Positions 34,440-40,424 of a stretch of DNA of 64,000 nucleotides are shown in pieces. Both the position numbers and the translations under genes were made by a program. Location: positions 6,386,001-6,450,000 of the forward strand of contig NZ_CP063458.1 in assembly GCF_015169395.1 (NCBI RefSeq). Reading direction: 5' to 3'. The notes beneath the pieces were generated by a model that ran no database searches, had not been told where the DNA came from, and saw nothing but the letters and a program-made list of their open reading frames with translations. Positions within the stretch are counted from its first letter, which is position 1; every line of letters begins with the position of its first letter. Origin of the DNA: Humisphaera borealis (GTDB taxonomy: Bacteria > Planctomycetota > Phycisphaerae > Tepidisphaerales > Tepidisphaeraceae).

Positions 34440-35537
34440 TCAGTCTCTGAACTTCGCGTGGCACGACTTGCAGGTCTGCGTGACCACTTTGAACTGCTTG
34501 TCCAGATCGGCTGGTGCCACGCCGGGTCCCTGGGTCAGCATCTCTTCCAGCGCGGTCGCGTCTTTGTTGGCCTCCTGCATCAGTTGCAGATACGCTGGCG
34601 GACGGGCGGTGGTGTCTTTGTCGCCGATCAGAAACCGGTAGTAGTCGGCCAGCTTGCCGGCTTCGGCGGCGGGGGCGAGCGCGGGGTGATCGTTCGGCAC
34701 CTTCCAACCGGATTTCTGGATCAGCTTCAGGTTCTCCGTCGCGACGTCGATCTCGACCATCGTCCGGGTCGTCCCCTGCGGGCGGACGACTTCGGGGAAG
34801 TTGCCGTCGATCGCATCGAGAATCGCCGGCATGACCTTGGTGGCATTGGCGGTGCAGGCGTACAGGCCTTTGTAATCTGGTGCGGTGCCGGAGACTTTCA
34901 TGCGTTCGACCGCATCGACCGGCGACATCCACCCCAGCGTCACCACCGCCGACCCGAGCGCCCCGGCGCTGCGGTGCTTGCCGTGATGACAGTGCATGTA
35001 GAGCGGCTTGGGCAGATCGCGAACCGCCCGGGCCAGTTCGAGCTTGCGCTTCTCGTCGAACCCGGCGTAGGTGATCGGCAGGTGGATGTACTTCAGGCCG
35101 TACTGGGTCGCCTTGTCGAGTTCGGGTTCCGATCCGTCGACAGAGACGATCGTCTTGATGCCCATCTTCTGGAGGGTCGCGAACCCTTCGTCACCCTCGG
35201 GGACCGAGCCCGAATAGACGTTGGGCGCGTAGGCAACGACGTTGTGCAGGCCGGGGTAGTCGAGTGGCCTGTTGTCGGCGAGCGTGGGAACGCCCGCCGC
35301 CCCCGTGAAACCCGCCGGCTTGCCGGCGGCAACGGAGGGTTTGGTATCCGCCGTTGCGGTGTGTGCCTCGACAGGGTTCGTCGCAGGCGAGCTTGCAACA
35401 TTCTGCGCCGGGGCCTGCGCTGGGCCGGACGGAGGCGTCGGCCCGCCACACGCACCGATGCCGAGCGACGCGACCGCCGCGACCGCGACGCGCCAGAAGC
35501 TGGCAGGGCGACGGCCGATGTTCCCAAAACTCTTCAT
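34440..35537 (-). CDS. Lipoprotein fusing a protein-tyrosine-phosphatase-like domain to a cytochrome c'-type heme site
   Basis: 365 residues from the ATG at 35537 (a start 15 bases upstream is possible). A lipoprotein signal peptide ends VASLGIGACGG. After a Pro/Ala/Thr linker comes a phosphatase-like domain: APNVYSGSVPEGDEGFATLQ, GIKTIVSVDGSEPELDKATQ, YIHLPI, then the P-loop HCHHGKHRSAG with nucleophile Cys183 and Arg189 (CX5R). The C-terminal ~150 residues look helical and end TCKSCHAKFRD, where CxxCH at 356-360 followed by a KFR tail is the covalent heme site of cytochrome c'. Both parts should face the periplasm. The domain pairing suggests redox or gas sensing linked to phosphate chemistry, but this is inference. 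No partner gene is adjacent. Confidence 0.85.
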   Translation of the reverse strand: MKSFGNIGRRPASFWRVAVAAVASLGIGACGGPTPPSGPAQAPAQNVASSPATNPVEAHTATADTKPSVAAGKPAGFTGAAGVPTLADNRPLDYPGLHNVVAYAPNVYSGSVPEGDEGFATLQKMGIKTIVSVDGSEPELDKATQYGLKYIHLPITYAGFDEKRKLELARAVRDLPKPLYMHCHHGKHRSAGALGSAVVTLGWMSPVDAVERMKVSGTAPDYKGLYACTANATKVMPAILDAIDGNFPEVVRPQGTTRTMVEIDVATENLKLIQKSGWKVPNDHPALAPAAEAGKLADYYRFLIGDKDTTARPPAYLQLMQEANKDATALEEMLTQGPGVAPADLDKQFKVVTQTCKSCHAKFRD

Positions 35538-35936
35538 GTGCACGTTCCCCATCGGTTCTGATCCGGGCGACCATCCCTACGACGATCCGCGGAGCAGACG
35601 GTAACGACCTTACGGTTCCCGATGCAAGGCAATCGCGCGATGTCTGCTCAATCGGACATGGCGAGGCGCGAAAGCTCTGTTCGCAAACAGCACTTGCAAA
35701 TTTTCGCCATAGACTTAACATATACCGTACATATGCACGGACGTCGGTACGGTCCTGGCAAGACGTGCCGTCGATCCTTCTCCGTGCGCCGGCAGGCGGG
35801 TGTGATCCGTTGGCCTGGCGTGAACTCCACGGGGACGCATGAAAACTGGCCGGACTCGGGCGATCGCCGTCGATTGCGCCGGGTGTTCTTCATTTGAGCC
35901 CGCGCACGCCGTGGCCGGGCCGCGAGGAGGTGTTCC

Positions 35937-36294
35937 TGGGTTCGTTCGGCGAATCCGTCTTGGGTTCGTTCGGCGGATCGGTCCTGGGTTCGTTCGGCGG
36001 ACGCTTCTTGGGTTCGTTCGGCGAAGTCGACAACGCAGACGCGGAAAGCCGTCCAGAGAACCTCCTTGCGGTTTCGCCAAAGCAGCGACGTCGGTCTGTC
36101 GCATTGACCCGGGCATTCTCGGGTTCGTTCGGCCAGATGGCGCAGGCCCGGGCGGGACGGCCGTACCACGACGATCTCGGGTTCGTTCGGCAGACAAGCC
36201 GACGGCGCAGCGTACTCGCGGAGCCTCGGGTCCCGCCGGTCTCGACTGGCGCGGGTTTGAGGGGTCCCGGGAGGATTCCTCGGGTTCGTTCGGC
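35937..36294. repeat. Seven copies of a GGGTTCGTTCGGC word, four in exact 24-nt phase
   Basis: tgggttcgttcggc starts at 35937, 35961, 35985 and 36009, an exact 24-nt period. Further copies of cgggttcgttcggc start at 36120, 36178 and 36281 with irregular spacing. Bases between copies are variable. On the other strand the word is GCCGAACGAACCC. Confidence 0.93.
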
Positions 36295-36367
36295 AATCCG
36301 AGCAGGAGGCGCCAGTCGCATGAGTCAACCGTTCGGGACATCGGTAGACCCCGAAGGGGTCAGCGAT

Positions 36368-36589
36368 GCTTGCCACGGGTGGAGCGAAGGCGGCGAAGCC
36401 GACGTCGCGGAACCCGTGGATCGCGATCTGAGATATCCCTCTACCCCGGCGGGGCAGACGATCGGTCGATCGGCGGAACGCCTTCCACATGTGACGGCTC
36501 GTCCGCCCCAGCCGGGGCGGTGGAGAGGATGTCCGTCACCACGGGTTCCGCGGCGTCGGCTTCGCCGACTCGCTCCACCCGTGGCAAGC
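36368..36589. repeat. Long inverted repeat with ~52-nt arms
   Basis: The left arm 36368-36419 (from gcttgccacgggtggagcga) and right arm 36539-36589 differ at only four or five positions. The spacer is about 119 nt and carries a smaller gcccca/gccggggc complementarity. Each arm has its own inner palindrome (GTCGGCGAAGCCGAC). Confidence 0.92.
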
Positions 36590-36762
36590 GGCGTCGGCCC
36601 CGCCGGGGCCAAAGACTAAAGGACGACGGTATATGGTGACGTCACGACCGCCGGCCGAAACTTGTCGTCACGTGGACATGCAGGGGATGGGACGCGTGAA
36701 CCTTTCGTCATCCTTGTGCACTATATCCATGGGACTGCTCATACTTTCCAATGGAGACCGCC

Positions 36763-38025
36763 ATGCTTCGAACCATTCTGACCTGCCTAGCCGTCGCTGC
36801 GATTCTGATGCAAAGCATCGGATGCGCAAGTGCAATGTCTTTCGATAGCGGGAAAGTGTTTCAGGAGACGCAGACGGTCGTCCAAGAATCGCCAACGTTC
36901 ATCCCCGGATCGACATCCGCAGTGCCCGGGGCCATCGGAAGCGACGTCCGAGCGACCGGTAGCTTTGAACTGTCACGTCCGACACTGGTGTCAAATTGGA
37001 TCGATCCTAGCCAGTTGGAGGCAAAAGAGATTCGGCCGATCCACGCCGTCGCCGACGCCAAACCTGTCGACCCACGCCTCGTCATCTACTCGGCGTCCTT
37101 CAAAATCGTCGTTGCAGACGTCGCCGGCACGTTGCGGTCCCTTCAAGCGACCGCCGACAAGCTCGGCGGGTACATGCAGGAGATCGGCGGTTCTGTCATT
37201 ACCTTCCGCATCCCCGCGGCGAAGTTCCAGGAGGCCTGCAAGCTCGTCGAAGACTCCGGCGAGGTCGTCGATCGGCAGGTGCGGGCGCAAGACGTCACCG
37301 AAGAGATGCGCGATCTCGGCATCCGCCTGGACAACGCCGAGAAGCTGCGCGAGCGTCTGCTGGAACTGCTTAAGAAGGCCGACAAGGTCGAGGACACGAT
37401 CAAGATTGAAGCCGAGCTGACGCGGGTCGTCGAACAGATCGAGCAGACCAAGGGGAAGATCCGCTACCTGACGTCGCAACTGGCGATGAGCACGATCCGC
37501 GTGGAGCTCAATTCGCCGGTCCCGCAGAACGCCCGCGGCACCGGGCCGAAGCTGCCGTTCAGTTGGGTGGAAGAGCTGGGCGACGGGCTGGTGGCGGGGC
37601 AGGTGCAGCAGCAGACGCGGAAGCTCGGCTATTTCTCGACCGGCCCGAAGTTCGCCCCGCCGGCCGGGTTCGTTCGGTATTACGAGCAGTCGACAGAAGT
37701 CGAAGCGATGGACGCCGAGGGACTGCGCCTGCGCGTCCTGCGCCGCCCGAACGTCGACAAGGCGGCGCTGAGCTTCTGGCAGGCGCTGGCCCGCAAGTCG
37801 CTCGTGGAAGGCCGGGCTCTGGCGGTCGGCAAGCAGGAGGGAGATGCAAACTACTACTTCCTTAGCGGCACGCGAGAGGTCGGCGGTCATTCGCTGGGCT
37901 ATGTCCTGGGCATCAAGCGCAGTGACGACCATGTCGCAGTGTTTGAAGCATGGGGACCGAAAGACCAGGTCGAGAAGGCGGCGGCAGAGCTGCGGAAGTC
38001 GGCGTTAAGTGTGGATGCCCGGTGA
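36763..38025 (+). CDS. DUF4349 lipoprotein
   Basis: The start at 36763 is supported by GGAG six bases upstream; the ATG at 36751 is an in-frame alternative. 420 residues. A lipoprotein signal ends LMQSIGCAS. The DUF4349 core starts at DPRLVIYSASFKIVVADVAG and includes TADKLGGYMQEIGGSVITFR, IPAAKFQEACKLVEDSGEVV, a long coiled coil (LDNAEKLRERLLELLKKADK, IKIEAELTRVVEQIEQTKGK) and LAMSTIRVELNSP. Unlike many DUF4349 proteins it has no C-terminal membrane helix; instead it has ~150 extra residues (VLRRPNVDKAALSFWQALAR, HSLGYVLGIKR). Envelope function unknown. Confidence 0.85.
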   Translation: MLRTILTCLAVAAILMQSIGCASAMSFDSGKVFQETQTVVQESPTFIPGSTSAVPGAIGSDVRATGSFELSRPTLVSNWIDPSQLEAKEIRPIHAVADAKPVDPRLVIYSASFKIVVADVAGTLRSLQATADKLGGYMQEIGGSVITFRIPAAKFQEACKLVEDSGEVVDRQVRAQDVTEEMRDLGIRLDNAEKLRERLLELLKKADKVEDTIKIEAELTRVVEQIEQTKGKIRYLTSQLAMSTIRVELNSPVPQNARGTGPKLPFSWVEELGDGLVAGQVQQQTRKLGYFSTGPKFAPPAGFVRYYEQSTEVEAMDAEGLRLRVLRRPNVDKAALSFWQALARKSLVEGRALAVGKQEGDANYYFLSGTREVGGHSLGYVLGIKRSDDHVAVFEAWGPKDQVEKAAAELRKSALSVDAR

Positions 38026-38366: not shown

Positions 38367-40424
38367 CTACGCGTCGTCGTTCGCCACGATGACCTTCGCC
38401 GAATCGCTGGCGAAGACGCCGTTCTTGATCGACAGGAGGCTGAGATGAAAGTCTTCGTCGGCTTCGATCGTCGAGTCGCCTTTGACTTCGACGGTGATCG
38501 TCTTGCTCGTCGGCCCGCCGGGGGCGAACGCGAGCTTGCCGGCGGCATGCTTGTAGTCGGTGCCGCTGACGGCCGAGCCGTTGGCGGTGGCGTACTTCAG
38601 CTTGACCGTCTTGGCGGGGCTGCGGTCGATCGACACGTTGAACGTCACCAGCTGCGTACCGGCGTTGCCTTCGACCACGCTCACCAAGGCCGGCGAGATG
38701 CTGATGATCGGCAAGTCCGAAGCGCCCGCGGCGGGGATCGACTTGGCACCGGCCGACGGCGGATGAACGCCGTTGTCCTGGATCGTGATCGTCGAGACGC
38801 CGGCACCGATGTCGGCGTTCTTCGCGTCGAACAGGTTGACGCTGAAGTTCTCGTCGGCCTCGGCGACCTGGTCGCTCTTGACCATCACGGTGATCGTCTT
38901 GCTCGTCTGCCCCGGCTCGAACTTGAGCTGGCCGACCGCTTTCACGAAGTCCGCGCCGCGGACCGCGCCGCCGTTGGGGGTGCTGAAGCGAACCTTCACC
39001 TTCTGGCTGGACGCCTCGCTCAGCGAGACGGTCAGTTGGACGGCTTTCTGGCCCGAGATCGCTTCGACGACCGTCTGCGAGCCCGGCGTGATGGAGACGA
39101 CCGGCACGCCGGTCGTCACCGGGGGAACCGTCGGCGGAACGGCGGGGGGCACGGCCGGCGGAACAGTCGGTGGGACCGTCGGCGGGACGACCGGTGGAAC
39201 AGTGGGCGGAACGGTCGGCGGAATTGTCGGGGGTACGGTCGGCGGTGTCGGGGGCGGAACCACCGGCGGGACGGCCGGGGGAATCGTGGGTGGAACGGCC
39301 GGCGGCGTGACGACCGAGCCGGCCGGCATGATGTTCGTCACGATGTAGATGTTGTCCTGGAAATCGTAGTTGGGCACGCTTCCCGACACCGGGATGCTGT
39401 AGTCCTGCACCATGAAGAACGTGCCGGCGATCGCGTTGCCGAAGTGATCGCGCACCGGGAAGAACCGCACTTCATGGCCGCCGCCGAACTGCGGGCGGGC
39501 GTTCTTCGTGTCGTCGCTGAAGCTGTTGTCGACCTTGAAACCGAACGGGCTGTTCGTCGTAAAGCTGCCGGCGGCGGGGGCCGTGCCGCCAAGGATGTTC
39601 GGCAACAGCGTCTGGCTGGCGGCGCCGTCGTGGCGGAAGATCAGGTTGTTGGTGTTCGAGCCCTGGTTGAACCAGCTCACCGGTACGTTCTGCCCCTGGC
39701 CGTGATACGCGGCGATCTGTCGCACGCCGACCGACTTGGCAGGGTTCACGCGCTGCCAGTAGCCGCTGACGACTTCTTCGCCGTAGTACTGAGCTTCGCT
39801 GCCCTGGCTGAGGAAAGTCGTGTGCGGCGGCGCGATGTTGGTCTTGTAATCCAGCAGCAGATTGATCGTCGTCTGCAGCGAGGGCTCGTTGTTCTTTTCC
39901 GAGTGCGTCTGGAACCAGCCGGCGAGGCCTTCGGTGAAGGTGGCGTTGGCGGCGTCGTTGGTCGCGAAGGTGAGCGAACCAATGTGCGCGCCCGCCTGCG
40001 TCTGGTTCGTCAGCCCGGCGGTCTGGTTGTAGGTGAAGGCCGGCGGCGTCGTCGCGTTGAACTTCACCGTCACGTTCGCCGACGCGCCTGGCGCGATCGC
40101 CGTCGGGAACGATCCGACGATCTGGAACGGGCCGCTGACGTTGAGGTTCGAAAGCTCCAGCGGTTCGTCGCCGACGTTCTTGAGCTTCAGGATGCCCTTG
40201 TCTTTGAAGGTGTTCGGCGTGTTCTGGTCGAGGTTGGCGATCTTGGTGAAGACCATCCGCTCGTAGCCGGGGACGATGTCGAGGTTCTCGACGACCAGGC
40301 TCGCGGACATGAGCTGGCGGCCTTCCAGCGGTTCGACGACGCAGGAAGGGATCGCGGCGACAACCGCCTGCGAACGAAGGGCCGACGACCGGGACTTGGA
40401 GGATGTAGACCGCTTGCCGAACAC
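38367..40424 (-). CDS. Secreted Calx-beta repeat protein with LEGR signature and Pro-rich linker (paralogue A)
   Basis: 685 residues from a GTG at 40424, six bases after AAGGAG. Residues ~28-44 carry VVEPLEGRQLMSASLVVENL, the planctomycete N-terminal motif. An Ig-like domain similar to choice-of-anchor D/ASPM-type modules follows (LKLKNVGDEPLELSNLNVSG). A conserved middle region includes FRHDGAASQTLLPNILGGT and HEVRFFPVRDHFGNAIAGTF. Next is a long PPTVPPxVPP linker, then two Calx-beta domains with VRFSTPNGGAVRGADF, EADENFSVNLFDAK, LKYATANGSAVSGTDY and EADEDFHLSLLSIKNG. Calx-beta domains bind Ca2+. Probably exported and adhesive. Its neighbour at 40677 is a close paralogue. Confidence 0.88.
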   Translation of the reverse strand: MFGKRSTSSKSRSSALRSQAVVAAIPSCVVEPLEGRQLMSASLVVENLDIVPGYERMVFTKIANLDQNTPNTFKDKGILKLKNVGDEPLELSNLNVSGPFQIVGSFPTAIAPGASANVTVKFNATTPPAFTYNQTAGLTNQTQAGAHIGSLTFATNDAANATFTEGLAGWFQTHSEKNNEPSLQTTINLLLDYKTNIAPPHTTFLSQGSEAQYYGEEVVSGYWQRVNPAKSVGVRQIAAYHGQGQNVPVSWFNQGSNTNNLIFRHDGAASQTLLPNILGGTAPAAGSFTTNSPFGFKVDNSFSDDTKNARPQFGGGHEVRFFPVRDHFGNAIAGTFFMVQDYSIPVSGSVPNYDFQDNIYIVTNIMPAGSVVTPPAVPPTIPPAVPPVVPPPTPPTVPPTIPPTVPPTVPPVVPPTVPPTVPPAVPPAVPPTVPPVTTGVPVVSITPGSQTVVEAISGQKAVQLTVSLSEASSQKVKVRFSTPNGGAVRGADFVKAVGQLKFEPGQTSKTITVMVKSDQVAEADENFSVNLFDAKNADIGAGVSTITIQDNGVHPPSAGAKSIPAAGASDLPIISISPALVSVVEGNAGTQLVTFNVSIDRSPAKTVKLKYATANGSAVSGTDYKHAAGKLAFAPGGPTSKTITVEVKGDSTIEADEDFHLSLLSIKNGVFASDSAKVIVANDDA

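Follow-up and report, generated by a model that had tools for sequence, protein, structure and literature searches.

A 13-nt word array of Humisphaera borealis belongs to a dispersed family of mosaic, apparently transcribed elements

In the 64,000-nt stretch of the Humisphaera borealis chromosome analyzed here (herein referred to as the window), a 13-nt word, GGGTTCGTTCGGC, is repeated on the + strand, and the question raised by this locus is what kind of element such an array is and what the word does in it. The word occurs in seven exact copies, the first four at an exact 24-nt start-to-start spacing, both as claimed in an earlier note made from the sequence alone; the following spacings are 111, 58, and 103 nt. 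All the copy starts given in that note were one base too low (the first word starts at 35938). At up to two mismatches, 16 matches to the word were found in the window versus 4.69 ± 2.36 in shuffled sequences, and none of the 100 shuffles reached 16. The nearest additional match to the array is a single copy with one mismatch at 37666, located within a coding gene. A chance origin of the word cluster is ruled out by these shuffles together with the genome-wide counts and the clustering given below.

The feature is larger than the region 35937-36294 considered previously, and a promoter, a structured leader, reused modules, and a protein family with the same words were all absent from the earlier description. 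In the window, the unit begins with the promoter-like element (35694) and reaches at least as far as the end of the last word (36294); its 3' boundary may lie as far downstream as 36608, where the inverted-repeat block ends (Table 1). Relatives of this block, with 75–84% identity, were found at the loci L069, L083, and L033, in the last of these between the words of the array. The segment that includes word 6 and the start of the following GGCGCAGCGTACTCGCGGAGCCTCGGGT module has approximately 82–95% identity (blastn) to many other arrays, for example L060, L067, L078, L083, and L106. No gene over the array was found by the hexamer gene caller, and no Pfam match was found for the two longest + strand ORFs. 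No known RNA family was recognized, and no Rfam family scored above its gathering score in the window; at E ≤ 1, the only Rfam match over the unit was MIR1858 (45 bits versus a cut-off of 137), located on the palindrome. The unit is directly followed by a gene for a DUF4349 protein. Two further genes noted in the window lie on the − strand. One of them encodes a protein with weak matches to DSP/tyrosine-phosphatase and cytochrome c', all below the Pfam cut-offs. The protein encoded by the other contains many consecutive VPPTVPP-type repeats, after which the sequence presumably resembles Calx-beta repeats.

Table 1. Coordinates of the features in the window and of the IS4-family genes at other word-array loci (locus coordinates where a locus is named).
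Feature	Position	Strand	Basis or description
Promoter-like head: TTGCAA 35694-35699, 16-nt spacer, TAACATATA 35716-35724 (TAACAT at 35716)	35694-35724	+	sequence
Structured leader RNA domain: P1a, 3' bulge, P1b, P2 with conserved GTGTGAT, P3	35771-35894	+	covariance model R1
GGGTGTGATCCGT, leader conserved core	35798-35810	+	≤2 mismatches in 32 array loci
Word copy 1	35938-35950	+	exact GGGTTCGTTCGGC
Word copy 2	35962-35974	+	exact GGGTTCGTTCGGC
Word copy 3	35986-35998	+	exact GGGTTCGTTCGGC
Word copy 4	36010-36022	+	exact GGGTTCGTTCGGC
Word copy 5	36121-36133	+	exact GGGTTCGTTCGGC
Word 6 and start of following GGCGCAGCGTACTCGCGGAGCCTCGGGT module, common to other arrays	36175-36235	+	blastn
Word copy 6	36179-36191	+	exact GGGTTCGTTCGGC
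Word copy 7, last	36282-36294	+	exact GGGTTCGTTCGGC
Inverted-repeat block 3' of last word, arms 36349-36419 and 36539-36608	36345-36610	.	repeat analysis
Gene with DSP/tyrosine-phosphatase and cytochrome c' matches	34440-35552	−
DUF4349 gene	36751-38025	+
VPPTVPP-repeat gene	38367-40424	−
IS4-family transposase gene	L031 3489-4649
IS4-family transposase gene	L032 3428-4588
IS4-family transposase gene	L079 1539-2699
IS4-family transposase gene	L084 3226-4386
IS4-family transposase gene	L091 3221-4381
IS4-family transposase gene	L106 3342-4502

In total, 367 exact words were found on the single-contig chromosome of 7,189,892 bases, 217 on the forward and 150 on the reverse strand; the word read backwards has no copies on the same chromosome. 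The cluster analysis, in which words within 1 kb formed one cluster, included 342 of the 367 words in 91 chromosome stretches, and the same placed set contains a further 156 words with a one-base difference. Of the 93 clusters obtained, 13 were single words and 80 contained two or more. None of the clusters was mixed in strand, and each of the 80 multi-word clusters has a single orientation. The extended consensus of the word is CTYGGGTTCGTTCGGCRR; the 13 bases of the word are kept genome-wide and the short spacers are variable. The random distribution with no clusters elsewhere that the earlier note had envisaged was not observed, and the readings of the locus as a multi-copy oriented array and as an intergenic repeat expansion are both supported. 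The majority of the arrays are located outside the genes found by our own, crude hexamer caller. Among 85 clusters analyzed with this caller, the downstream gene has the same direction as the words in 45 cases and the opposite direction in 40, by which the array is rejected as the 5' UTR of the downstream gene as a rule. The upstream gene points away from the cluster in 51 cases and along it in 34.

A promoter-like head is present at many of the arrays. The elements TAACATATA or TACAATATA were sought within 600 nt upstream of the words and in the same sense as these; exact copies precede 45 of the 87 arrays, and 58 arrays are reached at one mismatch, leaving 29 arrays with no such element. In the controls, the upstream antisense strand had no exact copies and four at one mismatch, and the downstream regions had none of either kind on either strand. 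In the logo of the 58 units, a TTG precedes the element by approximately 22 nt. This combination resembles a sigma-70 promoter, and the head looks like a putative promoter of that type.

Between the promoter and the first word, the core GGGTGTGATCCGT was found at up to two mismatches in 32 loci. For 17 of them, a structure consisting of P1a, a 3' bulge, P1b, P2, and P3 was proposed, with 93.5% of cells paired versus 32–41% in slid versions, a control that favors the first figure since the structure was named from the same sequences. The covariation score was above those of all 500 shuffles, and the pairs changed on both sides numbered two, no more than in the shuffles. The leader of the window matches the covariance model with 88.4 bits (chromosome positions 6421771-6421894) and is itself one of the 17 rows from which the model was built. 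Fifteen loci had been left out of the model, namely 11 with another stem sequence type that were not aligned in register, and L053, L097, L103, and L104. Five of these 15 were recovered at full length at E ≤ 0.05 (L097, L103, L069, L104, and L068), L074 was recovered in part, eight were recovered by the conserved core alone, and L053 gave nothing; thus, support for the fold is strongest in loci of the main type. A search of its own genome with the model at E ≤ 0.1 gave 27 hits, which fall in 25 loci, and every one of these loci has a word array. Four of these loci (L117–L120) were previously unknown, and all four hold words. A search of 297 other genomes of the class, run with tighter filters and with only 12 candidates from each genome scored, gave no hit at E ≤ 0.01. 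Taken by itself, the leader of the window folds no better than shuffled sequences (z +0.57). The 917-nt unit folds better than 20 shuffles (z −8.77), which is ascribed to its palindromes.

A promoter followed by a structured leader and co-oriented words could belong to a decoy RNA. CsrB-type decoy RNAs are promoter-driven RNAs with many copies of a short motif; by analogy, the words of the transcripts would be presented to an RNA-binding protein, perhaps the KHGL protein described below, which would also bind the words present in its own mRNAs. However, in the computed folds of 68 arrays the words were not preferentially unpaired (0.296 unpaired, compared with 0.302 elsewhere in the arrays and 0.279 when a permuted word was taken), approximately ninety separate loci are many for a decoy, and the word-bounded modules described below would be left unexplained. 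We regard decoy RNAs as an unlikely explanation of the arrays.

In some cases, the array overlaps a gene at its 3' end; these genes encode an uncharacterized protein with the motif NGA(K/R)SRGP...KHGL, herein referred to as KHGL. A protein search in the own genome found 11 places, ten at 53–100% identity to the query and an eleventh at 35%. In all ten close KHGL genes, words with the same sense as the gene are located at its 3' end or immediately beyond it, and the eleventh place has none. The array promoter precedes seven of the ten genes (six exact, one with a mismatch) and is absent from three. The copies L151–L153 are homologous from about the −35 region to within approximately 35 nt of the last word. 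No KHGL protein scored above a Pfam cut-off or matched NCBIfam, and these searches tied no recombinase or transposase to the word. The window array itself is noncoding, as the earlier note had argued from its translations; the argument does not extend to the ten KHGL genes, where the word lies in or adjoins coding sequence. In the KHGL tails, the word encodes LGSFG in one group and SRVRSA in another, and it could be supposed that the arrays are coding repeats of a protein family. Such a reading is hardly tenable, since two frames are used, the reading frame is not kept across spacings of, for example, 19 and 23, and most arrays are outside called genes. The use of two frames indicates that DNA or RNA letters are kept and not a peptide. 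The fixed orientation of the words to the promoter, in leader and KHGL units alike, suggests that the word acts in a transcript or is laid down through one.

The segments between the words were analyzed in 87 arrays with at least two words at up to one mismatch, comprising 489 words and 402 inter-word segments. The segments span from 5 nt to more than 200 nt and recur between arrays; lengths of 11, 6, and 10 nt account for 104, 30, and 17 of them, respectively, and 202 have a length of at least 30 nt. When membership in a module family required word-to-word homology covering 70% or more of each segment of a pair, 129 of the 202 long segments belonged to 20 reused families, some exceeding 160 in length and following differing orders in different arrays. 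The remaining 73 have no partner at this threshold, the three long segments of the window included, although one of these, the module after word 6, has the blastn matches in many other arrays described above. Thus, the statement of the earlier note that the bases between words vary holds locally in the window, and genome-wide many long spacers are recurring modules. Homology inside the arrays ends at a word for 73% of right ends and 72% of left ends versus 35% expected, an expectation computed for right ends; the pairs compared are not independent. Such exchange of modules at the words suggests a junction role for the word. No direct repeats flanking the units were found (4.36 versus 4.31 shuffled). 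Together with the absence of extra unpairedness of the words, this supports neither a simple displayed motif nor a classical transposon that duplicates its target.

The core of one module, CACGGSYTGGAARSCCGTG, is a palindrome that occurs 135 times across the genome, and many copies are located outside the arrays as inverted pairs. Among the first 100 copies listed, inverted pairs approximately 70–80 nt apart are frequent, an arrangement that is REP-doublet-like and independent of the words. Six identical IS4-family transposase genes (386 aa) are located in or adjoin word arrays (Table 1), several of them splitting an array, and apparently lie near the palindrome CACGGCTTGGAAAGCCGTG. This location is consistent with the REP-targeting IS elements documented in PMC1525189.

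The arrays might also be neutral mosaic repeats, accumulated and shuffled by homologous recombination or gene conversion with neither a function nor a dedicated enzyme. This would agree with the reused modules and the homology that ends at words, with tandem duplicates such as those of 117-nt period in L034, and with the IS copies in the same arrays. It would not account for a 13-base word kept genome-wide while the short spacers vary, for the one orientation of all multi-word clusters, or for a conserved promoter and leader upstream, and appears rather improbable to us.

The clusters are uniformly distributed along the chromosome (KS p 0.998), and with approximately ninety arrays spread in this way the iteron-like set suggested in the earlier note, in the sense of a replication origin, is not supported. 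A third suggestion of the note was a DNA-binding array for chromosome organization, with which the uniform coverage and the unusually even spacing would agree: for 84 clusters obtained after merging within 5 kb, the gap CV was 0.589 versus 0.925 simulated, and none of 3000 simulations was as even. An unrelated control palindrome, however, is also fairly even (CV 0.748; 54 gaps, among the copies listed), so the evenness is not specific to the arrays and may simply result from selection against repeats that lie close together. The strands are only weakly grouped along the map (34 runs versus 45.9 expected, z −2.58), and neither the promoter nor the leader would be needed for such a role, which we consider very unlikely.

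At least one word was found in 81 of the 298 genomes of the class, the own genome included, which is the chance level for a 13-mer; the highest count among the 297 others was four. In 392 genomes of the phylum, TTGGGTTCGTTC has 123 copies in the own genome and six in the next one. Wide conservation of the word is rejected on these counts, and the same class and phylum scans did not bear out the idea that ERTQ, NEPN, or RTNP tails derived from the word core are common in related phyla. A 65% complete genome of the same genus had no words, and an empty-site comparison with 20 of its contigs established no matching intergenic pair. No tandem words at 10–12 nt spacing were found in the named genomes; at 5–35 nt spacing, eight stretches were found in five organisms. 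One Isosphaeraceae MAG has three exact words on each of three of its four contigs (L121, L126, and L127), located in the PNEP-rich tail of a protein and antisense to the host gene, a reading that for L121 is based on the similarity of its DNA to L126 and L127. The words of L123 have another context. The likeness of the PNEP tail to the KHGL C-terminus (43% over 30 aa; E 1e-05, from one comparison) is weak and is thus not relied on. A single-sequence search found relatives of KHGL in 6 of 293 other genomes and a profile search in 32 of 391, and none of the 29 such loci inspected has a word at 0–1 mismatch. Viral contigs contained neither KHGL relatives nor a tandem word pair, and blastn against plasmids gave no match. 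In the literature covered, which included few subscription papers, there was no match for GGGTTCGTTCGG or NGAKSRGPVT and nothing relevant on planctomycete intergenic repeats.

The anatomy of the arrays is firmly established: their genome-wide number, single orientation, promoter-like head, leader, reuse of modules, and words at KHGL 3' ends. The window array is one copy of a dispersed family of approximately ninety mosaic elements, which are apparently transcribed. A typical element starts with the sigma-70-like promoter, which is followed by the structured leader RNA; in about ten elements the KHGL gene takes the place of the leader. The element ends with 2 to 10 direct CTYGGGTTCGTTCGGCRR copies, between which are short spacers (mostly 11, 6, or 10 nt) or reusable modules, many of them palindromic. 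The word would serve for oriented recognition, as the site where modules and elements join or exchange. The leader-RNA copies would need a protein from another locus, in all likelihood KHGL, as non-autonomous elements depend on autonomous ones. We favor this whole chain, with the word as recognition and exchange site and KHGL as the partner, only tentatively. A further step is conceivable, though we hold it doubtful: the KHGL genes and some eighty dependent leader-RNA units may form one mobile transcribed system that evenly populates a single chromosome and for which the 13-nt word serves both as oriented end and as place of exchange, a bacterial counterpart of autonomous/non-autonomous pairs. 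If the proposed reading is true, a transcribed element that has not been described before is present in approximately ninety copies in one genome, and both its RNA fold and its protein partner, which has no name, are new as well. This would provide a tractable case for the origin of bacterial mosaic repeats, in which the head, the end, the modules, and a candidate protein are all defined and can be tested.

Compared with known systems, the word arrays differ from CRISPR arrays, whose spacers are unique and of near-constant length, in that the segments vary widely in length and recur, and from iteron-type origins, where an array lies near a rep gene and the origin, in the uniform spread of the 93 clusters over the chromosome. 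They are similar to CsrB in having a promoter-headed unit, a putative RNA, with many short-motif copies, and differ from it in the number of loci and in the words not being displayed unpaired in computed folds. In eukaryotic SINE/LINE pairs, transcribed RNA elements share an end with a protein-coding partner, and the RNA-type units similarly share an end with the protein-coding KHGL units; unlike those pairs, KHGL has no recognized domain, no reverse transcriptase was seen, and target-site duplications were absent. REP/BIME and RAYT-associated REPs are described as high-copy interspersed intergenic repeats in PMC2817692 and PMC3116915, and REPs as IS targets in PMC1525189. The palindromic modules of the arrays are REP-like, and the IS4-like copies may show comparable targeting; the word, in contrast, is not palindromic, and its orientation does not alternate. 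In Neisseria NIME, which consist of dRS3 and RS units, hundreds of short-repeat copies separate reusable units of 30–160 bp, and the arrays are intergenic and hundreds of bases long, with the short repeat proposed as a recombination site (PMC3898611). The dRS3 repeat is 20 bp long with 6-bp terminal inverted repeats, ATTCCC(N8)GGGAAT (same source), whereas GGGTTCGTTCGGC is asymmetric and does not have this form, and the word arrays are single-orientation, headed by a promoter with a leader, and linked to a protein family. With reusable units likewise placed between short repeats, the neisserial NIME are the closest in layout to the word arrays.
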